Source: Paracoccus bogoriensis (GTDB taxonomy: Bacteria; Pseudomonadota; Alphaproteobacteria; Rhodobacterales; Rhodobacteraceae). From it: a DNA stretch of 64,000 nucleotides. The notes below the pieces were generated by a model, which was not told the origin of the DNA, made no database searches, and saw only the letters and a list, made by a program, of their open reading frames with translations. Positions within the stretch are counted from its first letter, which is position 1, and each line of letters opens with the position of its first letter. Both the position numbers and the translations under genes were made by a program. The stretch is from NCBI RefSeq assembly GCF_019431455.1, contig NZ_JAHYSR010000004.1, positions 62,001 to 126,000 of the forward strand. Reading direction: 5' to 3'. Below, in pieces: positions 34,387 to 44,782 of the stretch.

Positions 34387-34557
34387 GCTACGGTTCCGGC
34401 GAAGGTCGGATGAAAAGGGAATGTCGGTGCGCCCCGTCAGGGGCAATTCCGCGGCTGCCCCCGCAACTGTAAGCGGCGAGCGACGGTCCATCGCGCCACT
34501 GGAGCGATCCGGGAAGGCGGACCCAGGCCAAGACCCGCAAGCCAGGAGACCTGCCGC
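34387..34557 (+). ncRNA. Cobalamin (AdoCbl) riboswitch
   Basis: Conserved core elements in order: GGTTCC near 34392, AAAGGGAA near 34415, the GGTG segment, the long conserved GCTGCCCCCGCAACTGTAA at 34454-34472, CCACTG near 34496, GGGAAGG, and the B12 box GCCAGGAGACCTGCC at 34541-34555. It controls the btuB operon: cobalamin binding should turn off uptake gene expression. The boundaries are approximate. Confidence 0.95.
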
Positions 34558-34632
34558 AGCGATCACCCATTTCCGGCGCGGGGTGTGCCAGGAAAGCGGT
34601 CGATCCGCAGAGGTGACAGTCACCGTTCCGCG

Positions 34633-34657
34633 GCCCCGCCGCGGGGCATTTCTGTTT
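34633..34657 (+). terminator. Candidate expression-platform terminator of the B12 riboswitch
   Basis: GCCCCG (34633-34638) and CGGGGC (34642-34647) form a tight 6-bp hairpin with a 3-base loop, followed by ATTTCTGTTT, between the B12 box and the btuB ATG. It could be the switched terminator, or a hairpin affecting the leader, but alternative pairing with the aptamer was not computed. Confidence 0.45.
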
Positions 34658-34696
34658 GCCGCAGGCCCTGGCCTGCCACGCGAAAGGTCTGACCGG

Positions 34697-36550
34697 ATGC
34701 GTTCCATATTCTCTCTGCTGGCGCTTGGCGCCGTCTTTCCCGCCGTGCCCGTCCTGGCCGAGCCGCAGCCCTTTCTTCTGGACGAGATCGTCCTGTCGGG
34801 CAGCCTGACCCCGGTTCCCGCCGACGGCTATGCCCGCGCCTACAGCGTCGTCACCCGCGCCGAGATCGAGGCACGTGGTCTTGCCAGCGTCGAGGATGCC
34901 CTGCGCGCGCTGCCCGGTCTGTCGGTCAGCACCAGCGGCAGCAGCCTGACGCAGATCCGCATCCGGGGCGGCGAGGCCAATCACACGCTGGTCCTGATCG
35001 ACGGGATCGAGGCCTCGGGCGGTGCGGATTCGCATGTCTTTTCGGGGTTTGGCACGGAAGACATCGAACGGATCGAAGTTCTGCGCGGACCGCAATCGGT
35101 GATCTATGGCTCGAACGCCTCGACCGGGGTCGTCAACATCATCACGCGCCGGGCCGAGCCGGGGCGCGGCCATGGCGGAGGCATCGAGGTCGGCAATGGT
35201 GCGGCCGGTTCGGCCTGGGTCACGCAGCGCGGCGATCGCGGTGGCCTGGCGCTGAGCCTTGCGGCGCGCAACGACCGGGGCTTCGACTATTCGGGCGATG
35301 GCGGCGGCAAGGATGGGCTGGACACGCGCACGGCCACCCTGACGGGCGATGTTGCTGCGACCGAGACGCTGCGCGTCGGCGCCATCCTGCGCCGCGAGCG
35401 GCTGCGCTATGATTACGACGCCGAGAACCCTGACTGGGCTGCGACCGATGCCGACAGCTATATTGTCGATGCGCCGCTTTTCGGACGCCGCGACGGTCTG
35501 CGCGGCGCGCTCTGGGCCGAGCACGAGGCTTTCGACGGCCGCCTGACGCAGCGCCTGCAATGGCAGCAGAGCCGTGACCGGGCCAGCGAGAATGACGGCC
35601 CGCAGCGGCGCGGCGAGACGCAGAGGCTGAGATACCGCGCCTCGGTCGGGTTGGATGGGCGCGTCTCGGATGCGCGGCACCTGCTGAACCTGCTGGCCGA
35701 GCGTCAGCGCGACACGACCAGCATGGCGCCCGACCAGCGGCGTCAGGCGAACGCGGTGGCGCTGGAATACCGCGCGCGGCTGGATGGGCTGGATGTCCAG
35801 GCCGGCCTGCGCCACGACGACAACCGCGCCTTTGGCGACTTCACCAGTTGGAACATCGCGGCCTCGTGGCAGGTGCCGGACATGCCGCTGCGGCTGCGGG
35901 GCTCGGCGGGGACGGGCCTGGTGAACCCGTCCTTTACCGAATTGTTCGGCGGTTTCGGCACGATCGGCAATCCCGATCTGCGCCCCGAGCAGAACAGAAG
36001 CGTCGATCTGGGCGTCGATTGGCAATGGGCGCAGGGACAGGTCGGGCTGACCTGGTTCCGCGAAAGCTTGAAGGACGAGATCGAGTTCTTCGCGACGCCA
36101 TCGGGCGATTTCTCCTATCGCAATCAGTCGGGCCGCAGCCCGCGCCAGGGGGTCGAGCTTGCCGCGCGGATGGATGCCACCGAGGTGCTGAGCCTTGGCG
36201 CCAGCTACACCTATCTGGACGCGAAGAACCCCGATGGCAGCGTCGAGATCCGCCGCCCCCGCCACGAGGCCGGGCTGAACGCCACCCTGGCGCTGCTGGA
36301 GGGGCGCGCGCAGGTTTCGGGCGATCTGCGCCGGGTCTCGGGTTTGTGGGACACGCAGTTCTGGGGCGGTTTCGAGACGCGCGAGCTGCCTGCCTATACC
36401 GTCGTCAACCTGGCGGCGGCCTACGACCTGACCCCGAATGTGCGGGCGACGGCGCGGGTGGTGAACCTGTTCGACCGCTCTTATTCCGAAGTCTGGGGCT
36501 ATGCGAGCCAGGGCCGCACTGCCTATCTCGGCCTGCAGGCCCGCTGGTGA
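34697..36550 (+). CDS. btuB: TonB-dependent cobalamin receptor
   Basis: 617-residue outer-membrane barrel. A signal peptide ends near PVLA-E at residue 21; the TonB-box-like LLDEIVLSG follows. The plug domain runs to about 155 (RIRGGEANHTLVLIDGIEA, IEVLRGPQSVIYGSNA). The C-terminus ends YLGLQARW with a terminal aromatic, as needed for barrel assembly. The ATG at 34697 is chosen since the frame upstream lies within the riboswitch. The stop overlaps the next GTG start (GTGA). Confidence 0.93.
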   Translation: MRSIFSLLALGAVFPAVPVLAEPQPFLLDEIVLSGSLTPVPADGYARAYSVVTRAEIEARGLASVEDALRALPGLSVSTSGSSLTQIRIRGGEANHTLVLIDGIEASGGADSHVFSGFGTEDIERIEVLRGPQSVIYGSNASTGVVNIITRRAEPGRGHGGGIEVGNGAAGSAWVTQRGDRGGLALSLAARNDRGFDYSGDGGGKDGLDTRTATLTGDVAATETLRVGAILRRERLRYDYDAENPDWAATDADSYIVDAPLFGRRDGLRGALWAEHEAFDGRLTQRLQWQQSRDRASENDGPQRRGETQRLRYRASVGLDGRVSDARHLLNLLAERQRDTTSMAPDQRRQANAVALEYRARLDGLDVQAGLRHDDNRAFGDFTSWNIAASWQVPDMPLRLRGSAGTGLVNPSFTELFGGFGTIGNPDLRPEQNRSVDLGVDWQWAQGQVGLTWFRESLKDEIEFFATPSGDFSYRNQSGRSPRQGVELAARMDATEVLSLGASYTYLDAKNPDGSVEIRRPRHEAGLNATLALLEGRAQVSGDLRRVSGLWDTQFWGGFETRELPAYTVVNLAAAYDLTPNVRATARVVNLFDRSYSEVWGYASQGRTAYLGLQARW

Positions 36551-37374
36551 GGGGCTTGCCCGCCCTGGTGCTGGTCCTTCTGGCGATGACGGGACCGGCT
36601 GTGGCCGATCCCGTGGCGCAGGCCGCGCCCTTGCGGGTTCTGTCGATGAACCTGTGCACCGATCAGCTGGCAATGCTGGTCGCGGCGCCGGGGCAGCTTG
36701 TGTCGGTCAGCCACATGGCGCGCGATCCGCTGGTCTCGGCCATGGCGGCCGAGGCCGCGTCGCTGCCCGTCAACAACGGTCAGGCCGAGGACATCCTGCG
36801 CCACCGCCCCGACCTTGTCCTGGCCAGCGCCTACAGCGCCCCGGTGACGCTGGACATGCTGCGCCGGCTGGGCATTCCGGTTGCGGTCTTTCCGCCGGAA
36901 AACGACATGGAGGGCGTCCGCGCCAACCTGCGCCTGATGGGCGCGGTTCTGGACCGCAAGGCCGAGGCCCAGGCCATCATCGACCGGTTCGACACCGATC
37001 TGGCGGCACTGGCCGCCTTGCCGGCTTCGGGTCGGCGGGCGGCGCTTTATGGGGCCAACGGCTACACATCGGGGCGGGGCAGTCTGGCCGATGCGATCCT
37101 GTCGGCGGCGGGTCTGACGAATGTCGCAGCGGAACTGGGGATGTCGCAGGGGGGTGTGCTGCCGCTGGAGCGGCTGGTCATGGCACGGCCCGACCTGGTC
37201 TTGACCAGCCAGCCCTATCCGGGCGGCTCGCGCGCCGAGGAGATCCTGCGTCACCCCGCCCTGCGCGCCCTGACCGCCGAGCCGGGCGCCGGGGCCGTGT
37301 CAGACAGCGATTGGGTTTGCGGAACGCCCCATGTCCTGCGCGCGGCCGCGCGACTGGCGGGGGTCGCGCCATGA
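36547..37374 (+). CDS. btuF: Periplasmic cobalamin-binding protein
   Basis: 275 residues. A signal peptide runs from the GTG start to AVA near residue 21. The mature protein is a class III (BtuF/FepB-like) binding protein: RVLSMNLCTDQLAMLVA, DILRHRPDLVLA, ANGYTSGRGSLAD. The GTG start is chosen because it overlaps the btuB stop and begins the signal peptide. The stop overlaps btuC. Confidence 0.88.
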   Translation: MRGLPALVLVLLAMTGPAVADPVAQAAPLRVLSMNLCTDQLAMLVAAPGQLVSVSHMARDPLVSAMAAEAASLPVNNGQAEDILRHRPDLVLASAYSAPVTLDMLRRLGIPVAVFPPENDMEGVRANLRLMGAVLDRKAEAQAIIDRFDTDLAALAALPASGRRAALYGANGYTSGRGSLADAILSAAGLTNVAAELGMSQGGVLPLERLVMARPDLVLTSQPYPGGSRAEEILRHPALRALTAEPGAGAVSDSDWVCGTPHVLRAAARLAGVAP

Positions 37375-38351
37375 GGCTGATGGCGGGGCTGTGGCTTCTG
37401 GTGCTGCCGCTCTGTGCGGCCTCGTTGCTGGTCGGCGCGGTCTGGCTGCCGCCGGGCGCTGCGCTGACGGCACTGTTCGGGCGGGGCGATCCGCTGCTGG
37501 TGCTGGTCATGCAGGAACTGCGCCTGCCGCGTGCGATCCTGGGCGCGGCGGTGGGGGCGGCGCTTGGGCTGGCGGGGGCGGCGATGCAGGGGTACCTGCG
37601 CAACCCCCTGGCCGAGCCGGGGCTGATCGGCACCTCGGCCATGGCCTCGCTTGGGGCGGTTCTGGCGATCCAGACCGGCCTTGCCGCTGCGCTGCCGCTG
37701 GCGCTGCCCGGCGCGGCGCTGGCGGGGGCGGGGCTGTCGGTCGTGCTGGTTCTGGCGATGGCCGGGCCTCGGGGCGGGGCGCTGGCGCTGATCCTTGCGG
37801 GGATCGCGGTCTCGGCGCTGGCCGGGGCGCTGACCTCGCTGGTGCTGAACCTGTCGCCCAACCCTTTTGCGGCGAACGAGATCGTCTTCTGGATGATGGG
37901 CTCGCTGGCCGACCGCTCGATGCTGCATGTGCAGATCGCGCTGCCGGTGATGGCGGCGGGGGTGCTGATCCTGTGGCCCTTGGGCCGCGGCCTGCGCGCT
38001 CTGTCCCTGGGCGAGGACGTGGCGGCCAGCATGGGCATCAGCCTGCCGCGCCTGCGGCTGAGGCTGGCGCTCGGCACGGCGGCGCTGGTCGGCGGGGCCA
38101 CGGCCGTGGCGGGGGCGATCGGCTTCGTCGGACTGGTCGTGCCGCATCTCTTGCGCCGCGCGGTGGGTGGCGATCCGGGGCGGCTGATGGCGGCCTCGGC
38201 GCTTGGCGGGGCGGCGATGGTATTGGCCGCCGACATCGCGGTGCGCCTGATCCTGCCGGAACGCGACCTGAAACTGGGCGTTCTGACCGCACTGATCGGG
38301 GCGCCCTTCTTTCTGCACCTGATCCTGCGGTTGAGAAGGCAGATGCCATGA
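37371..38351 (+). CDS. btuC: Cobalamin ABC transporter permease (FecCD family)
   Basis: 326 residues, about ten membrane helices. FecCD-type motifs: RLPRAILGAAVGAALGLAGA near 54-73, RNPLAEPGLIGTSAMASLG near 79-97, GAIGFVGLVVPHLLRRAVG near 245-263. The ATG overlaps the btuF stop (ATGA) and the stop overlaps the btuD ATG. Both siderophore and cobalamin permeases belong here; the riboswitch fixes cobalamin as substrate. Confidence 0.92.
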   Translation: MRLMAGLWLLVLPLCAASLLVGAVWLPPGAALTALFGRGDPLLVLVMQELRLPRAILGAAVGAALGLAGAAMQGYLRNPLAEPGLIGTSAMASLGAVLAIQTGLAAALPLALPGAALAGAGLSVVLVLAMAGPRGGALALILAGIAVSALAGALTSLVLNLSPNPFAANEIVFWMMGSLADRSMLHVQIALPVMAAGVLILWPLGRGLRALSLGEDVAASMGISLPRLRLRLALGTAALVGGATAVAGAIGFVGLVVPHLLRRAVGGDPGRLMAASALGGAAMVLAADIAVRLILPERDLKLGVLTALIGAPFFLHLILRLRRQMP

Positions 38352-39100
38352 GCCTGATGACGCTGTCCGGTCTGTCGGTTCATCGCGGCGCCTCTGCGGT
38401 TCTGGACGGGATCGACCTGACGGTCGGCCCGGGCGAGTTCGTGGGCCTTCTGGGCCCGAACGGGGCGGGCAAGACGACGCTGCTGCGCGCGGCGATGGGG
38501 CTTTTGCCCGCGCGGGGCACGGCTTCGCTGGCCGGGCTTGCGCCGATGGCCCGGGCGCGGCGCGCTGCCTATCTGCCGCAGGGGCGCGAGATCGCCTGGC
38601 CCATGCCAGTGGGTGCGGTTGTGGCGCTTGGCCGGATTGCGCATGGCGAGGGCGCGGCGCCCCGGGATCGGGCCGCGACCGAGGCTGCGATGGCCGCGCT
38701 TGGCCTGACCGCCATACGCAACCGGGACGCGACCTCCCTGTCGGGGGGAGAGCAGGCGCGTGTCCTGATCGCCCGTGCCCTGGCGCAGGAGACGCCGCTG
38801 CTGATCGCGGACGAGCCGATCGCGGGGCTTGATCCGGCTGCGGCGATCCGGGTGATGGCGCTGTTTTCGGACCTTGCCCGGCAGGGGCGCGGCGTGGTCG
38901 CGGCCCTGCATGACCTGGGCCTTGCCGCGCGGCATTGCACGCGGCTGGTGGTGCTGAATCGGGGCCGGATCGCCGCCGACGGCCCCCCCGAGACCGTCCT
39001 GACGCCCGAGCTTATGGCCTGCGTCTTCGGTATCCGCGCGCGCGTGACCGATGCGCCAGAGGGGCCGTTCCTTCAGGTGCTGGGCTGTCTGGACGGCTAG
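38348..39100 (+). CDS. btuD: Cobalamin ABC transporter ATP-binding protein
   Basis: 250 residues. Walker A GPNGAGKT is at 36-43, the signature LSGGE at 131-135 and Walker B LLIADE at 151-156, with the switch His in VAALHDLGLAARH near 195. It starts within the btuC stop and ends at 39100, where its TAG overlaps the stop of the convergent cytochrome b561 gene (shared CTAG). Confidence 0.92.
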   Translation: MSLMTLSGLSVHRGASAVLDGIDLTVGPGEFVGLLGPNGAGKTTLLRAAMGLLPARGTASLAGLAPMARARRAAYLPQGREIAWPMPVGAVVALGRIAHGEGAAPRDRAATEAAMAALGLTAIRNRDATSLSGGEQARVLIARALAQETPLLIADEPIAGLDPAAAIRVMALFSDLARQGRGVVAALHDLGLAARHCTRLVVLNRGRIAADGPPETVLTPELMACVFGIRARVTDAPEGPFLQVLGCLDG

Positions 39101-39648: not shown

Positions 39649-39738
39649 GATGACCTCCTGCCGATTCAGCATAGCGCAAAGGCGCGATGGGGCGAAGCGC
39701 GCACTTGACGCGGGCGGGCGGGCGGCGTTCGATGTGCC

Positions 39739-40476
39739 ATGCGCGATCTGCCCGTGACAGGAACAGCCCGATTTCCCGAAGCCCGCCCGACCCTTGCGGT
39801 CGCCGAACTGTTGCGTGCGGGGATGGTGGGGTTGGTCGTAATGCTGGGCGCCTTGCCGGTCCTGTCGATGGATCCGGTCGGGCTGGCGGTGGCCGTCATC
39901 GCCTATGGCGCGGGATTCGCGCGCATCGCCCGGATCATGCGCCGCACCTATCCCCATCAGCGCGTCGGTGCGGGCAATCTGGTCACATTGTCCCGCGCGG
40001 CTCTTGTCGCGGCGCTGCTGGGCGCGGTGACGGGCGGTCAGGCGGCGGGCTGGGCGGTTGCCATCGTGGCGGCAATCGGGCTGGCGCTGGACGGAATCGA
40101 CGGCTGGCTGGCGCGGCGGGCGGGTCTTGTCTCGGATTTCGGGGCGCGCTTCGATCTGGAGGTCGATGCCGCGTTGGCCTTTGTCCTGGCGCTGCATGTG
40201 CTTTCGGGCACGGCGGTCGGGGCCGAGGTGCTGGTGCTGGGCTCGCTGCGTTACCTCTTTGTCGCGGCCGGGCGGGTCGCGCCCTGGCTGCGGGGCGATC
40301 TGCCCTTCAGCCAGCGCAGGCGGGTGATCTGCGTGGTGCAGATCGCGGCGCTGATCTTTCTGGTGACGCCTCTGGCGGGCGACGATCTGGCGATCTGGAC
40401 CGCGCGTCTGGCCAGCGCCGCGCTGGTCTGGTCCTTCGCGGTCGATGTGGCTTACCTGTGGCGGGTGCGGGCATGA
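39739..40476 (+). CDS. CDP-alcohol phosphotransferase family protein
   Basis: 245-residue inner-membrane enzyme. The full catalytic signature DGxxAR-x8-GxxxDxxxD is present (Asp121, Arg126, Gly135, Asp139, Asp143), with NLVTLSRAALVAALLGA near 80 as the substrate helix. The reaction would join an alcohol to a CDP-lipid (or a lipid alcohol to a CDP-linked head group). The ~80-residue N-terminal extension with two helices is longer than in PgsA/PssA. It opens a four-gene operon; its stop overlaps the next ATG. Confidence 0.85.
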   Translation: MRDLPVTGTARFPEARPTLAVAELLRAGMVGLVVMLGALPVLSMDPVGLAVAVIAYGAGFARIARIMRRTYPHQRVGAGNLVTLSRAALVAALLGAVTGGQAAGWAVAIVAAIGLALDGIDGWLARRAGLVSDFGARFDLEVDAALAFVLALHVLSGTAVGAEVLVLGSLRYLFVAAGRVAPWLRGDLPFSQRRRVICVVQIAALIFLVTPLAGDDLAIWTARLASAALVWSFAVDVAYLWRVRA

Positions 40477-42029
40477 GCGCGGGGCGGATCCTGCCGCCCT
40501 TGCTGGCGGCCGGCCTGCTGTGGCTGCCCTTCGCCATGCCGCTACGCCCCGGCCCGGGGCTGGGCCAGTGGTTCCCGCTGGCCCCGGAATGGCCCGCCTT
40601 GCTGCTGGCTCTGGCATTGGCGGGGCGCTGGCTGCGCCTGCCGGTCGTCGTGCTGCTACTGGCGCTGGCGGCGCATAAACTGGCCGATATCGCCATGCAT
40701 TCGGCCCTGGCGCGGGGCTTCAACCTGCGCGCCGATCTGCCGCTGATCGAGGCGGGCTTGCGTCTGCTGGCCGGTTCGGTGGGGATGATGGCAAGCCTGG
40801 GGCTGGTCGTGCTGGCGGTGGCGTCGCTGGCCGGTCTTGCGGTGCTGCTATGGTGGGCGGCGGGCCTGTGGTCGCGCATCGGCGGTGGCTGGCGGCTGCG
40901 CGGTGTGCTTGCAGCGCTGTCGCTGGCCAGCCTGGTCCTGGTGCAGATGGGTGCGATCCGGGCGGAAAGCACGCTTTATGCCCAGAGCCGGGTTGCGCTG
41001 TTTGCCGATACGCAGCGCGCGCTGGCGGGTTTTGCGCAGGAGGCCGCGCATGATCCCTTTCTGAGCGCGACGGGTCTGCTGGAACGCATCGACCGCGACG
41101 TGCTGCTGATCTTCGTCGAAAGCTATGGCCGCACCAGTTTCGACACGCCTCTTTACGCCGAGACCCATCTGCCGCTGCTTGAACAGGCCGAGGCGCGGCT
41201 GGCCGAGGCTGGACTGTCCATGCGGTCGGGTTTCGTCGCCGCGCCGACCCGGGGCGGGCAAAGCTGGCTGTCGCACGGCACCTTGTCCAAAGGAATGTGG
41301 ATCGCGGACCAGACCCGCTATCGCGCGGCCCTGGCCAGCGGGCGGCAAAGCCTGTTCCACCATGCCGCGCGGGCGGGTTTTCACACCGCTGCGGTGATGC
41401 CTGCGATCACGCTGCCCTGGCCCGAATCCAGTCGCATGGGCTTCCAGACCGTGCTGGAGGCCGCCGATCTGGGCTATCAGGGTCTGCCCTTCAACTGGGT
41501 GACGATGCCCGACCAGTTCACCTTGGCCGCGCTGGACCGGCTGCTGCGCGACGGCCGAGACCCGCGGCGGCTGTTTGCGCAGGTGGCGCTGATCTCGTCC
41601 CATGCGCCTTGGGTGCCGGTGCCGCGGCTGATCGACTGGAACCTTGTGGGCGATGGCAGCGTTTTCAATGACATGGCGCAAGAGGGCGACCCGCCCTCGG
41701 TCGTCTGGCGCGACCGCGACCGCGTGCGCGACCAGTATCGGCAGGCCGTGGCCTATTCGCTGGAGGTCGTGATGGATTATGCCTTGCGCCATGCCGAGGA
41801 TCCGCCGCTGATGCTGGTCATCGGCGATCATCAGGCCGCCCCGCGCATCGCGCTGGACGAACGCCCCGACGTGGCGCTGCATGTCATCGGACCCAAGGCG
41901 CTGGTGGCCGAGACTGCGGCCTGGGGCCTGACCCCCGGCCTGATCCCGCCGCCGGACAGCGAGGCCTTTCCGATGGACCGGCTGCGCGACATGATCCTTG
42001 ACAGCTTCAGCGGCAGACCGCGCTCATGA
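40473..42029 (+). CDS. Membrane sulfatase/phosphoglycerol-transferase-like protein
   Basis: 518 residues: about five N-terminal membrane helices (to about 160), then a large periplasmic alkaline-phosphatase-superfamily domain. LLIFVESYGR near 211 (metal-ligand Glu216), GGQSWLSHG near 261 (candidate nucleophile Ser264), and VIGDHQAAP near 450 (Asp-His metal ligands) fit the LtaS/OpgB-like arrangement. Such enzymes transfer or cleave phospho-head groups from lipids outside the membrane. The ATG overlaps the stop of the CDP-alcohol gene and the stop overlaps the next ATG. Confidence 0.82.
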   Translation: MSAGRILPPLLAAGLLWLPFAMPLRPGPGLGQWFPLAPEWPALLLALALAGRWLRLPVVVLLLALAAHKLADIAMHSALARGFNLRADLPLIEAGLRLLAGSVGMMASLGLVVLAVASLAGLAVLLWWAAGLWSRIGGGWRLRGVLAALSLASLVLVQMGAIRAESTLYAQSRVALFADTQRALAGFAQEAAHDPFLSATGLLERIDRDVLLIFVESYGRTSFDTPLYAETHLPLLEQAEARLAEAGLSMRSGFVAAPTRGGQSWLSHGTLSKGMWIADQTRYRAALASGRQSLFHHAARAGFHTAAVMPAITLPWPESSRMGFQTVLEAADLGYQGLPFNWVTMPDQFTLAALDRLLRDGRDPRRLFAQVALISSHAPWVPVPRLIDWNLVGDGSVFNDMAQEGDPPSVVWRDRDRVRDQYRQAVAYSLEVVMDYALRHAEDPPLMLVIGDHQAAPRIALDERPDVALHVIGPKALVAETAAWGLTPGLIPPPDSEAFPMDRLRDMILDSFSGRPRS

Positions 42030-42961
42030 CTCTCGCGGCCTGCCTGCGGCTGCTGGCCAGCCTCGTGATCCTGGGGCTGGTCTGGTGGCAGATCGGCGCG
42101 CCCGAGGCCGCCGCGCGGCTGGCCGAGGCGCATCCGGGCTGGCTGCTGGCGGGGCTGGCGGCGCTTTGGGCGCAGACGCTTCTATCGGCCTGGCGCTGGC
42201 GGCTGGTGGGGTATGCGCTTGGCGTAATGATCGCGCCCGCCCGCGCGCTGTCGGAATATTTCCTGGCGCAACTGGTCAATCAGACCCTGCCGGGTGGCGT
42301 TCTGGGCGATCTCTCGCGCGCCTGGCGCAGCGCGCAGGGGGCGGGCTTTGCCCGGGCGGGCGGTGCGGTTCTGGCCGAGCGCGTGCTGGGGCAGGTGGCG
42401 TTGATGGCGCTTCTGGTCGCCGGGCTGGTCTGGGCGGCGCGGGCGCCGGGCCAGATCCGCGTTCCGGCCGAGGTGCTGATCCCGGCAGGTCTGGTCCTGG
42501 GCCTGCTGATCGCGGGCCTTGGCGTCGTGCTGCTGATGCCGCGCCTGGCCCAGGCTGGTCGGGCGCTGCTGCCTGCGGGCGTGATGCTGCCGCAACTGGC
42601 GCTGAGCCTTGGCGCGGCGGCGCTGAATCTGCTGGCTTTCGATTTCGCCGCCCGCGCGACCGGCACGACCTTGCCGCCCGCCGCCATCGCGGTTCTGGTG
42701 CCTCTGATCCTGCTGACCATGCTGGTGCCGGTGACGGTCAGCGGCTGGGGCCTGCGCGAGGGGGCGGCGGCCGCCCTGTTTCCGCTGGCGGGCGCCAGCG
42801 ATGCGGCGGGGCTGGCGGCCAGCACGGCCTTCGGGCTGATCTTCCTGATCTCGACCCTGATCGGGACAGGGGTTTGTCTGGCCCATGGTGCCATTGCGGG
42901 GCAGGCTTCGACCATGCGTCCCGCCCTGCGCCCGTCGCGCGCCCGCCCGGAACAGAGGTGA
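42026..42961 (+). CDS. LPG-synthase-type transmembrane (flippase-like) protein
   Basis: 311 residues with about eight helices, matching the LPG_synthase_TM/UPF0104 fold: WWQIGAPEAAARLAEAHPGW, SAWRWRLVGYALG, NQTLPGGVLGDLSRAWR, and the C-terminal VPVTVSGWGLREGAAAALF. Relatives move or modify lipid-linked substrates. Its ATG overlaps the sulfatase-like gene stop and it ends 4 bases before the glycosyltransferase ATG. Confidence 0.82.
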   Translation: MTLAACLRLLASLVILGLVWWQIGAPEAAARLAEAHPGWLLAGLAALWAQTLLSAWRWRLVGYALGVMIAPARALSEYFLAQLVNQTLPGGVLGDLSRAWRSAQGAGFARAGGAVLAERVLGQVALMALLVAGLVWAARAPGQIRVPAEVLIPAGLVLGLLIAGLGVVLLMPRLAQAGRALLPAGVMLPQLALSLGAAALNLLAFDFAARATGTTLPPAAIAVLVPLILLTMLVPVTVSGWGLREGAAAALFPLAGASDAAGLAASTAFGLIFLISTLIGTGVCLAHGAIAGQASTMRPALRPSRARPEQR

Positions 42962-42965
42962 CCCG

Positions 42966-44012
42966 ATGAGCCCGATCCCCGCCGCCTTTGCCCTGCCGGG
43001 CGACATCGCCACCGTGACGGGGGGCTATCTCTATGACCGCCGCCTGTTCGAGGGCTTGGAGGGGCTGGGCCATGCGATGCGCCTTGTGCCTCTGTCGCCG
43101 CAATTCCCCTTTGCCGATGCGGCGGCGATGGCGGAAAGCCTTGCCGCACTGGCAGACCTGCCCGCCGATTGCCCGGTCATCGTGGACGGTCTGGCCTATG
43201 GCGCGCTGGAGACCGAGGGGCTGGCGCGGGTCCGCGCGCCCATCCTGGCGCTGGTGCACCACCCCCTGGCGCTGGAAAGCGGGCTGCCTGCCGATCAGGC
43301 CGCCCATCTGGAGGCGACCGAGCGCGCCAATCTGCGCCTTGCGCGGCATGTGCTGGTCCCCAGCCCCCATACAAGCCGCATCCTGATCGAACGCTACGAC
43401 GTGCCGCCCGGCGCGATCACCGTCGCCCGGCCTGGCGTCCAGCCGGTGCGGATTGCGCCCGCCCCGACCGATCCGCCGCTGATCCTGTCGGTGGGCATCC
43501 TTCATCCGCGCAAGGGCCACGACATCCTGATCGCGGCCTTGGGTGCACTGGGCGATCTGGATTGGCGCGCGGTGATCGCCGGAACTCCGTGGGAGGCCGG
43601 CCATGCCGATGCGTTGGCGCGCCAGATCGCCGCCAGCCCGGTTGCCGACCGGATCACCCTGGCCGGGGCCGTGCCGGATGAGCGGCTCGAGACGCTTTAC
43701 GCCGAGGCCAGCCTGTTCGCGCTGGCCACCCGATACGAGGGGCATGGGCTGGTCTTTGACGAGGCGATCCTGCGCGGCCTGCCGATCCTGTCCTGCCGCA
43801 CCGGTGCGGTGCCCGACACGGTGCCGCAGGATGCGGGGCTGCTGGTCGCGCCCGATGATGCGACGGCCTTTGCCGGGGCGCTGCGGCTGATGCTGACCGA
43901 TCGGGCACGGCGCGAGGCTGCTGCTGCGGCAGCGCGGCGGGCGGCGGCGGCCTTGCCCGACTGGCCCGCGACGGCGCGGGTCGTCTCGGGCGTGTTGCAG
44001 AGGCTGGCCTAG
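42966..44012 (+). CDS. Glycosyltransferase, GT4 (GT-B fold)
   Basis: 348 residues. Seen: N-terminal GGYLYDRRLFEGLEGLGH (substrate loop), donor-domain VGILHPRKGHDILIAAL near 176, and the retaining-GT E-x7-E motif (Glu258 and Glu266) in YEGHGLVFDEAILRGLPIL. It would transfer a nucleotide-activated hexose at the cytoplasmic face. The ATG at 42966 is chosen from homology and spacing. It is last in the four-gene operon; its stop region overlaps the convergent GntR gene by 4 bases. Confidence 0.85.
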   Translation: MSPIPAAFALPGDIATVTGGYLYDRRLFEGLEGLGHAMRLVPLSPQFPFADAAAMAESLAALADLPADCPVIVDGLAYGALETEGLARVRAPILALVHHPLALESGLPADQAAHLEATERANLRLARHVLVPSPHTSRILIERYDVPPGAITVARPGVQPVRIAPAPTDPPLILSVGILHPRKGHDILIAALGALGDLDWRAVIAGTPWEAGHADALARQIAASPVADRITLAGAVPDERLETLYAEASLFALATRYEGHGLVFDEAILRGLPILSCRTGAVPDTVPQDAGLLVAPDDATAFAGALRLMLTDRARREAAAAAARRAAAALPDWPATARVVSGVLQRLA

Positions 44013-44782
44013 TCCGACTTCGGGCTGCGGTTGCGCAACCTGAGCTGTGCGATGGCGTCCTGTTCGTCGGCCTTGCGTTGCGATTCCAGCGCCGCGGCCA
44101 CGCAATCGAGATGCGATTCCAGCGCCCGGCGGGCCAGCGCGCCGTCGCGGGCCTGAAGGGCGGCATTGATCGCCTGGTGCTGGTCCAGGATGCGGTCGCG
44201 CAGATCGCCGCGCTGAAAGATGCGGGGGCGGTTGAACAGCATCCCCTGGCGCAGCAGATCCTGCATGGCGCGCATCATGTGCAGGGCGACGATGTTGTGG
44301 CTGGCCTCGACGATGGCCATGTGGAAATCGGCATCCAGCGCGGCCTCGGCCTCGGGATCGGCGATGGCATGGGCGTGACGCATGTCGGTGACGATCCGGT
44401 CCAGCAGGTCCAGATCGGCCTGCCCGGCCTCGGTCGCGGCGCGTTCGGCGGCCAGCCCCTCAAGATCCTTGCGAAAGCGCAGAAAGTCGTCCGCGGCGCG
44501 GGGATGGCGGGCGATCAGCCGCACCAGAGCGGGGGAAAAGGCGCTGCCCAGAACCTCGGCCACATGGATACCTGCATTGGGGCGCAAGACCAGCAGCCCG
44601 TCTGCCTGCATCGCCGCCAACGCCTCGCGCAGCGAGGGGCGGCTGACACCCATCCGCGCGGCCAGATCGCGTTCGCCCGGCAGACGCTGGCCCGGACGCA
44701 GCACGCCTTGCAGGATCAGCCATTCGATCTGGCGTCTCACCTCTTGCGAAAGTTTCGCAGCGTCGATCTTCTCAAAGGGCAT
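44009..44782 (-). CDS. GntR-family transcriptional regulator, FCD subfamily
   Basis: 257 residues. The winged HTH (about 11-75) carries LRPGQRLPGERDLAARMGVS and SRPSLREALAAMQADGLL; the FCD domain has metal-type ligands Asp152/His154 (DADFH), His202 (DQHQAI) and His224 (ESHLD). FCD regulators respond to small carboxylates such as lactate or pyruvate. It does not sit next to an obvious target operon. The convergent end overlaps the GT4 gene by 4 bases. Confidence 0.88.
   Translation of the reverse strand: MPFEKIDAAKLSQEVRRQIEWLILQGVLRPGQRLPGERDLAARMGVSRPSLREALAAMQADGLLVLRPNAGIHVAEVLGSAFSPALVRLIARHPRAADDFLRFRKDLEGLAAERAATEAGQADLDLLDRIVTDMRHAHAIADPEAEAALDADFHMAIVEASHNIVALHMMRAMQDLLRQGMLFNRPRIFQRGDLRDRILDQHQAINAALQARDGALARRALESHLDCVAAALESQRKADEQDAIAQLRLRNRSPKSD

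Follow-up and report, generated by a model that had tools for sequence, protein, structure and literature searches.

What do four tightly packed genes for membrane-associated enzymes do for the envelope of Paracoccus bogoriensis? The question is raised by positions 39739-44012 of a 64,000-nucleotide stretch of its genome (contig NZ_JAHYSR010000004.1, positions 62,001 to 126,000, corresponding to G000:C44:62001-126000 in our numbering; assembly of 3.0 Mb), referred to below as the window. The four open reading frames (ORFs) all lie on the forward strand and form one tight operon, coding for a CDP-alcohol phosphotransferase (CDPAP), a protein with an alkaline-phosphatase-superfamily domain (SULF), an LPG_synthase_TM protein (FLIP) and a family-4 glycosyltransferase (GT4). 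CDPAP and SULF, as well as SULF and FLIP, share four-base ATGA overlaps, and 4 bases separate FLIP from GT4; the overlapping layout reported by the first-pass annotation is thus borne out by ORF coordinates and Pfam matches (Table 1). The same annotation took the genes for a self-contained operon, devoted to an undescribed lipid or glycolipid head group. The gene set is real and conserved, and what had been seen is its membrane half: the best explanation of the operon is that it represents one half of a split pathway, whose other half is located on contig C77 of the same genome. We tentatively propose, as a possibility falling somewhat short of probable, that CDPAP, FLIP and SULF form a phospholipid head-group relay joined to a pterin-glycoside pathway, yielding an envelope conjugate for photooxidative stress. 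Gene content, co-occurrence, predicted folds and conserved residues were computed here, while induction by light and singlet oxygen is taken from published work.

The distribution of the genes was evaluated in 198 genomes of the family, by using thresholds varying by gene from 1e-10 to 1e-100 (E<=1e-15 for CDPAP, E<=1e-10 for SULF, E<=1e-100 for the importer described below). SULF was detected in 24 genomes and CDPAP in the identical 24 (Fisher p = 2e-31); FLIP is present in 21 of them and in 3 others (p = 3.5e-22), GT4 in 20 and in 6 others (p = 1.6e-18), all p-values, here and below, treating related genomes as independent and therefore overstating independence. Counting the window genome itself, SULF was detected in 14 of 61 near genomes and in 13 of 37 members of the genus; among named relatives, the nearest that was found is a Paracoccus sp. 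metagenome-assembled genome, whose SULF is 90% identical. Gene order was evaluated in named loci, the best 80 of at least 559 matches, setting aside ATP, MalK and F24 matches below 55% identity, FkbM and IMP matches below 50%, and matches with a query coverage below about one third. CDPAP is located immediately 5' of SULF in 79 of these loci, FLIP follows SULF in 66, and a cytochrome b561 gene is divergent in 68; GT4 comes straight after FLIP, in the order of the window, in 13. The four families, whose failure to co-occur elsewhere had been proposed as the refuting observation, are therefore found together both in family genomes, at a frequency far beyond chance, and in named loci. They do not, however, make up a natural unit, GT4 being associated less with CDPAP and SULF than with an importer or a pterin-like synthesis set, and for this reason the stand-alone four-gene lipid operon was set aside.

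On contig C77 of the window genome, the synthesis set runs IMP-FkbM-RibA-ZnDH-PTPS-SAMMT-RibDC, with no GT4 in the stretch. It is composed of an inositol-monophosphatase-family protein (IMP), an FkbM methyltransferase, a RibA-like GTP cyclohydrolase II, a Zn-dehydrogenase (ZnDH), a PTPS-like protein, a methyltransferase (SAMMT) and a RibD_C reductase. Relatives may carry instead an importer, an NMT1/THI5-type ABC transporter (PF09084), for which no match was found in the window genome at E<=1e-100. All 16 family genomes with the importer (SBP) have GT4. Of the 26 GT4 genomes, 15 contain just the importer and 8 just RibD_C (three by weak matches), one contains both and two contain neither. The RibD_C set includes 12 family genomes, six of them by weak matches (157-197 bits): G064, G114 and G161 are without GT4, while G143, G182 and G210 were counted as RibD_C-only, G210 alone having been checked and found to show the set. 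In the sole genome with both, G123, the importer is decayed by in-frame stops and frameshifts. Named loci gave an importer in 44 cases, synthesis genes in 19, both in none and neither in 17; for the 65 with GT4, the importer was found in 43 and synthesis genes in 15. The decay seen at L060 (11340-14320), with an in-frame stop in the binding protein and a broken permease in a genome carrying the synthesis RibD_C, looks like a case of synthesis replacing import.

The individual members of the synthesis set were compared with their nearest characterized families. Membership of GTP cyclohydrolase II, of which a Cys-rich zinc site is the hallmark, was established on the copy of a relative (L101), by PF00925 (199 bits) and by alignment to 2bz0 through CFTGDVLGSRKCDC. 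For RibD_C of the same relative, the nearest solved structure is a 2,5-diamino-6-ribosylamino-pyrimidinone phosphate reductase (1e-27, as compared to 1e-14 for RibD proper); a reductase of this kind would be in keeping with the product of GTP cyclohydrolase II being used directly. In NCBIfam, RibD_C is nearest to the general RibD C-terminal model, under every cut-off. A canonical PTPS or QueD was rejected for the PTPS-like protein, since the copy of the window genome reaches 27.8 bits against a QueD cut-off of 89.25, and no Cys was found in FGPAQGMHGATF, where canonical PTPS has its catalytic one. Its sole PDB relative at E<=0.001 is SCO6650 (3d7j, E 1e-35) of Streptomyces coelicolor; VFGPAQxxHGAT is common to both.

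Beyond Rhodobacterales, the two halves may be found merged. SULF matches were obtained in 28 plasmid records, 17 of which were opened. In 6 of 6 Rhizobiaceae plasmid records, CDPAP, SULF, FLIP, GT4, PTPS, ZnDH, RibA and SAMMT are contained in one locus, with CDPAP interleaved with RibA (and FkbM); RibD_C and b561 are found in five, the sixth stretch (L177) being cut. In the gammaproteobacterium Ca. Thiodictyon, a purple sulfur phototroph, the genes run ZnDH-PTPS-GT4-MT-b561-RibD-CDPAP-SULF on one strand, and SULF matches the profile over 481 columns. That CDPAP often adjoins RibD_C, PTPS-like or GTP cyclohydrolase II genes outside Rhodobacterales speaks against the four window genes as a unit. 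Conversely, relatives of SULF from Streptomyces (two plasmids) and Indioceanicola (one plasmid) have no pathway genes alongside, save one FkbM match, so that the SULF family alone is not diagnostic; this also marks a difference from the system of SCO6650, the two Streptomyces relatives of SULF being located outside any such cluster.

A class-level survey of 248 alphaproteobacterial genomes detected SULF in 18 and the PTPS-like protein in 31; the latter is present in 17 of the 18 SULF genomes (window's included), versus 14 of 230 others (p = 5.5e-17). The stretches examined are single-locus views, in which ATP, MalK, F24, OpgH and OpgG matches below 38% were set aside, as were all matches in which less than about one third of the query was aligned. 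The string ZnDH-PTPS-GT4-MT was found in 18 of 20 PTPS stretches, one miss corresponding to a contig end. CDPAP is located at the pterin locus in 10 of the 17 SULF-positive genomes besides the window's, and in one it is located beside SULF only; it was found at none of four SULF-negative pterin loci, examined out of 14 genomes with the PTPS-like protein and no SULF. Because of this placement, CDPAP and SULF look like an optional tail of the pterin-glycoside pathway.

CDPAP shares with PgsA and other CDP-alcohol phosphotransferases a complete catalytic motif, as first annotated, which is DxxDGxxAR(8)GxxxDxxxD at residues 118-143, and scores 48.8 bits against PF01066 (cut-off 22). The nearest solved fold to its model (predicted local distance difference test score, pLDDT, 92.4) is PgsA, with Z 14.1 (root-mean-square deviation, rmsd, 3.0, 164 aligned), followed by PIP synthase at Z 11.7 (rmsd 3.5, 163 aligned). 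It differs from PgsA in reaching 24.4 bits against the TIGR00560 cut-off of 109.1, and an ordinary pgsA gene is located on contig C66 of the same genome; the housekeeping enzyme was accordingly rejected as an identity for CDPAP.

The SULF model (pLDDT 91.3) is helical at residues 3-192, followed by an alpha/beta domain; the N-terminal helical region was taken as membrane helices, with a topology predicted from the model. Structure comparison (VIA), in which rows within 1 Z were counted as ties, gave LtaS (Z 20.6, rmsd 4.2, 280 aligned), LtaP (Z 20.6, rmsd 3.7, 261 aligned), GacH (Z 20.0, rmsd 3.5, 258 aligned) and the meningococcal lipooligosaccharide phosphoethanolamine transferase (Z 19.3, rmsd 4.0, 274 aligned). 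Of the LtaS/OpgB likeness originally suggested, the LtaS/EptA-type fold holds, at Z of about 19-20.6, while no sequence relation to E. coli OpgB was detectable by hhalign. Like LtaS, LtaP, GacH and the EptA-MCR enzymes, SULF combines an N-terminal helical region with an alkaline-phosphatase-fold domain. Putative metal-ligand-like E, D and H residues and a hydroxyl residue are conserved among SULF sequences: E216, S264, H377 and H453 are kept in 50 of 50 sequences, D452 in 49. In LtaS and EptA the nucleophile is Thr, and the metal ligands are E, D and H; SULF differs in an invariant Ser in place of the Thr, and S264 of GGxSW is likely, judged by position, to be its nucleophile. It also differs in that the SULF profile found none of these enzymes in the PDB at E<=10, and neither the profile nor the protein gave any relevant PDB match by sequence.

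FLIP matches PF03706 only, over its 311 residues; the C-terminal aminoacyl transfer domain of MprF is not present, and an MprF-type lysyl-phosphatidylglycerol synthase/flippase was rejected on these grounds. GT4, the single match of its kind in the window genome, carries the EX7E motif EGHGLVFDE at 43737-43763 and scores 90 bits with PF00534, in agreement with the GT-B nucleotide-sugar domain of family-4 enzymes.

Table 1. Features of the window operon and of related loci. Coordinates refer to the window, unless a locus is named.
Feature	Location	Strand	Remarks
Cytochrome b561-type membrane protein, 183 aa	39097..39648	-	Divergent partner; NF008566 6e-13, below cut-off
CTTGAC, -35-like element	39704..39709	+	Upstream of CDPAP; -10 part weak in the window
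CDPAP, CDP-alcohol phosphotransferase, 245 aa	39739..40476	+	PF01066 1.3e-12; full catalytic motif at 40090-40167
SULF, alkaline-phosphatase-superfamily domain behind N-terminal helical region, 518 aa	40473..42029	+	PF00884 5e-9
E216 in ESYGR	41118-41132	+	SULF, putative metal-ligand-like residue
S264 in GGQSW	41253-41267	+	SULF, candidate nucleophile
H377 in SSHAPW	41595-41612	+	SULF, conserved residue
D452/H453 in GDHQ	41823-41834	+	SULF, conserved residues
FLIP, LPG_synthase_TM/flippase-like protein, 311 aa	42026..42961	+	PF03706 1.4e-32
GT4, family-4 glycosyltransferase, 348 aa	42966..44012	+	PF00534 1.6e-25; EX7E
Second half of gene set: IMP, FkbM (opposite strand), RibA, ZnDH, PTPS-like, methyltransferase, RibD_C	L152 1544-7257 (G000:C77)		Without GT4
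OpgH-family glycosyltransferases, 600-640 aa	L157 3533-5410, L158 2891-4810, L160 7567-9381, L161 9944-11743		Beside GT4, in genomes without CDPAP/SULF

A connection with light is provided by Dinoroseobacter shibae, whose 72-kb chromid carries the orthologous genes, in the importer form (locus Dshi_4160-4172), beside mdoG, mdoH and a gene for light-dependent protochlorophyllide reductase (LPOR), with mdoH adjoining b561. Tags were matched to genes by order, using Dshi_4160 (LPOR) and Dshi_4169 (cybB) as anchors. The relevant sections of PMC4373377 report that Dshi_4166-4170 are up in light/dark and that light induction spans Dshi_4160-4171; the orthologues are counted there among the genes of the singlet-oxygen response and seen as possibly providing an unknown kind of protection from reactive oxygen species, with no pathway given in those sections, and cells cured of the chromid lost light-aided survival under starvation. 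The reductase gene was observed beside the cluster at L174 16531-17517 (pDSHI05), and a cyanobacterial origin is reported for it (PMC4373377, in the corresponding section). Elsewhere, the chromid is described as being without major influence on growth under the conditions of that study (PMC9426580, in part), and excerpts of PMC7074977, PMC10949492 and PMC9426580 hold no gene-level evidence on the cluster. Regions upstream of CDPAP were compared in the window and 79 loci: CTTGAC, with at least 32 nt following, is present in 53 of 80, at a median of 35 nt before the start codon, and CTTGAC followed by C(T/A)TA is recurrent. A promoter of the RpoE type, whose consensus is TGATCC-N14-18-TAW, was rejected, being found in 0 of 80 regions on either strand (forward-strand shuffles average 0.2). 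On a plasmid of Roseicitreum antarcticum (L182 12896-16486), a response regulator, a NepR anti-sigma factor, a sigma factor and a histidine kinase, of the general stress response type, were observed beside the cluster.

The pathway that we propose would start in the cytoplasm, where the RibA-like GTP cyclohydrolase II, RibD_C reductase, PTPS-like protein, Zn-dehydrogenase and methyltransferase encoded on C77 would make a GTP-derived pterin-like compound, which in relatives would be imported instead by the NMT1/THI5-type transporter. The compound would be glycosylated by GT4. CDPAP would then use CDP-diacylglycerol to build a dedicated phospholipid, with the glycoside or an accompanying alcohol as head group; genomic company points to the GT4 product as the alcohol entering this reaction. 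FLIP would turn the lipid to the periplasmic side, and SULF, by its likely Ser nucleophile, would hand the phospho-head group on to an acceptor in the periplasm, which in the case of Rhodobacterales might be an OpgGH glucan. What would result is a pterin conjugate, redox- or photo-active and anchored in the envelope, that would serve under photooxidative stress and might have cytochrome b561 as its electron partner. Substrates, step order, acceptor and end product of the relay are what we infer; its direction, from CDPAP to FLIP to SULF, is proposed because PgsA-like enzymes use CDP-diacylglycerol, LPG_synthase_TM proteins may flip a lipid product, and LtaS/EptA-fold enzymes take phospholipids as donors. 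The earlier idea of building, translocating and transferring a group is in part supported, since its order fits a CDPAP of PgsA-like fold, FLIP, and a SULF of LtaS/GacH/EptA fold.

Several observations weigh against this proposal. Among the named loci with GT4, 65 in all, seven show no importer or synthesis genes within reach. Thirteen of the 80 named loci and 3 of the 24 SULF genomes are devoid of FLIP, and four of the SULF genomes (G078, G125, G154, G219) are without GT4, importer and RibD_C at the thresholds used, the locus being occupied in three of them by a sugar-type ABC transporter. In the opposite direction, GT4 is found without CDPAP and SULF in six family genomes (G071, G143, G182, G185, G222, G248), and GT4 with the importer in three; the glycoside module therefore has no need of CDPAP and SULF. 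FLIP and RibA were not found at the Thiodictyon locus, G289 has SULF without the PTPS-like protein, the stretches of 6 of the 17 SULF-positive genomes gave no CDPAP, and SULF shares a stretch with the pterin string in just 5 of the 17. Moreover, 'pterin' is a family-based label, because the PTPS-like protein has no Cys at the place of the catalytic one of canonical PTPS. As for D. shibae, it has the importer form, and the curing phenotype corresponds to the loss of a whole 72-kb replicon; growing cells without the chromid showed no light defect (PMC4373377, same sections), and the main text of a proteome study on peroxide, paraquat and diamide does not contain these tags (PMC8007024). At the SULF loci without GT4 designated L061, L063 and L071, a MalK-type ATPase and a family-1-type sugar-binding protein were observed, possibly another head-group supply.

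A further point against the proposal is the distribution of MdoG, present in 23 of the 24 SULF genomes versus 60 of 174 others (p = 4e-9), which favours glucan decoration: SULF, acting like OpgB, would move the phospho-head group of a special phospholipid, made by CDPAP and flipped by FLIP, onto OpgGH periplasmic glucans, and the pterin-like genes would share stress regulation only. OpgB and OpgE, the glucan phosphoglycerol and phosphoethanolamine transferases, are of the same superfamily as SULF, and the phospholipid-to-glucan logic would be alike. OpgG- or OpgH-like genes lie within the stretch in 25 of the 80 named loci, in 5 of the 6 GT4 genomes without SULF the distance from GT4 to an OpgH-family glycosyltransferase is no more than about 4 kb, a variant that may work with the GT4 product, mdoH adjoins b561 in D. 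shibae, and OpgB is reported to add phosphoglycerol to osmoregulated periplasmic glucans (PMC10514313, in part). On the other hand, hhalign assigned a probability of 0.3% to both E. coli proteins, so that SULF was rejected as an orthologue of either, and it has, unlike them, its own lipid-making enzyme alongside. No OpgG or OpgH match was found in the stretches of the six Rhizobiaceae records and of Thiodictyon, whose chromosomes were not searched; CDPAP and SULF are present in G192, where no MdoG or OpgH was found; and outside Rhodobacterales CDPAP is often inside the RibD_C/PTPS locus. We regard this explanation as unlikely. Glucans may still be the acceptor in Rhodobacterales, as MdoG tracks SULF and OpgH-type enzymes are found near GT4, and this would be compatible with the relay proposed above; the loci of Rhizobiaceae and Thiodictyon, as well as G192, argue against a general role of glucan as acceptor.

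The separate occurrence of each module, in the four and six genomes named above, would also be expected from an island in which CDPAP-FLIP-SULF and the pterin/GT4 genes give two distinct products under common stress regulation and travel jointly, often on plasmids or chromids. The span of light induction in D. shibae, the 28 plasmid records, and the 12 of 17 class-level genomes in which SULF is apart from the pterin string point in this direction; the interleaving of CDPAP with RibA (and FkbM) in Rhizobiaceae and its position after RibD in the gammaproteobacterium are more than shared regulation requires, and its absence from 4 of 4 examined SULF-negative pterin loci is a further argument against an explanation that we consider rather doubtful. 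Two readings center on SULF itself. Its membership of the PF00884 sulfatase family, and the sulfatases among its structural matches (Z about 17-18), might indicate a periplasmic phosphodiesterase or sulfatase, turning over the CDPAP lipid with no head-group transfer; GGQSW is, however, without the Cys/Ser-x-Pro-x-Arg signature of sulfatases, and both the helical N-terminal region and the best matches are those of phospholipid-dependent transferases, making this improbable. Assembly of a polymer resembling lipoteichoic acid, with GT4 making a glycolipid anchor onto which SULF would polymerise phospho-alditol units from the flipped CDPAP lipid, could account for LtaS and LtaP as top VIA matches (Z 20.6), for PgsA as the nearest fold of CDPAP and for the lipoteichoic acid glycolipid anchor model, which is weak (0.006) among the 30 matches listed for GT4. 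Since EptA-type enzymes score just about 1 Z lower, and GT4 keeps company with the pterin string or the importer, being present also without CDPAP and SULF, we hold this to be very improbable.

Two known systems resemble parts of the arrangement. YbhP and YbhN, of the EEP family and of the LPG_synthase_TM type, are encoded together with a phospholipid-making enzyme in the enterobacterial ybhP-clsB-ybhN operon; an EEP gene is within 28 of the 80 named loci, and none was seen at the window locus. The synthase is different, ClsB being of the phospholipase D type and not a CDPAP, and neither an alkaline-phosphatase-fold transferase nor GT4 is found in that operon. It is described as complete with its three genes (PMC9241728, in part). 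In phosphocholine transfer by PptA, a lipid-making enzyme (Pcs or PmtA, giving phosphatidylcholine) is likewise proposed to supply a transferase of the alkaline phosphatase superfamily; there the targets are proteins, the donor itself is described as not identified, and pterin-like genes are not mentioned in the sections concerned (PMC10434233). Around the operon, ORFs for a TonB-dependent receptor, then for binding-protein, permease and ATPase, upstream of b561 (34421-39100), resemble from their translations a cobalamin or heme uptake operon, and a GntR/FadR-type regulator, also recognized by translation, is convergent with GT4 (44009-44782).

Searches of the open-access literature for the gene set gave only PMC4373377 and a paper on an alga, and no description of it as a pathway was found in them. 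While known periplasmic phosphotransferases of the LtaS/EptA fold draw on common phospholipids, SULF comes with its own lipid-making enzyme, and the tie to an unnamed pterin-like pathway, which bacteria operate themselves or give up in favour of an importer, spans at least two alphaproteobacterial orders and one gammaproteobacterium. Taken to its full extent, the proposal implies a new covalent envelope modification, in which a glycosylated, GTP-derived pterin-like cofactor, made or imported according to the genome, would be attached by CDPAP to a dedicated phospholipid. After flipping, SULF would pass it on to a glucan or protein of the periplasm, where it would stay immobilised as a pterin active in redox or light reactions, with cytochrome b561 serving it; in this extended form the proposal seems unlikely to us. 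Attachment of a cofactor would recall ApbE, which transfers flavin, with the difference that a lipid carrier would be used here. Each part is of a known kind and, if real, the pterin conjugate would be categorically new. For D. shibae, whose orthologues belong to a light and singlet-oxygen response on a replicon needed for starvation survival in the light, it would offer a mechanism not previously known, and it would give a function to gene sets whose members now carry unconnected annotations (6-carboxytetrahydropterin synthase, RibA, sulfatase, LPG synthase).

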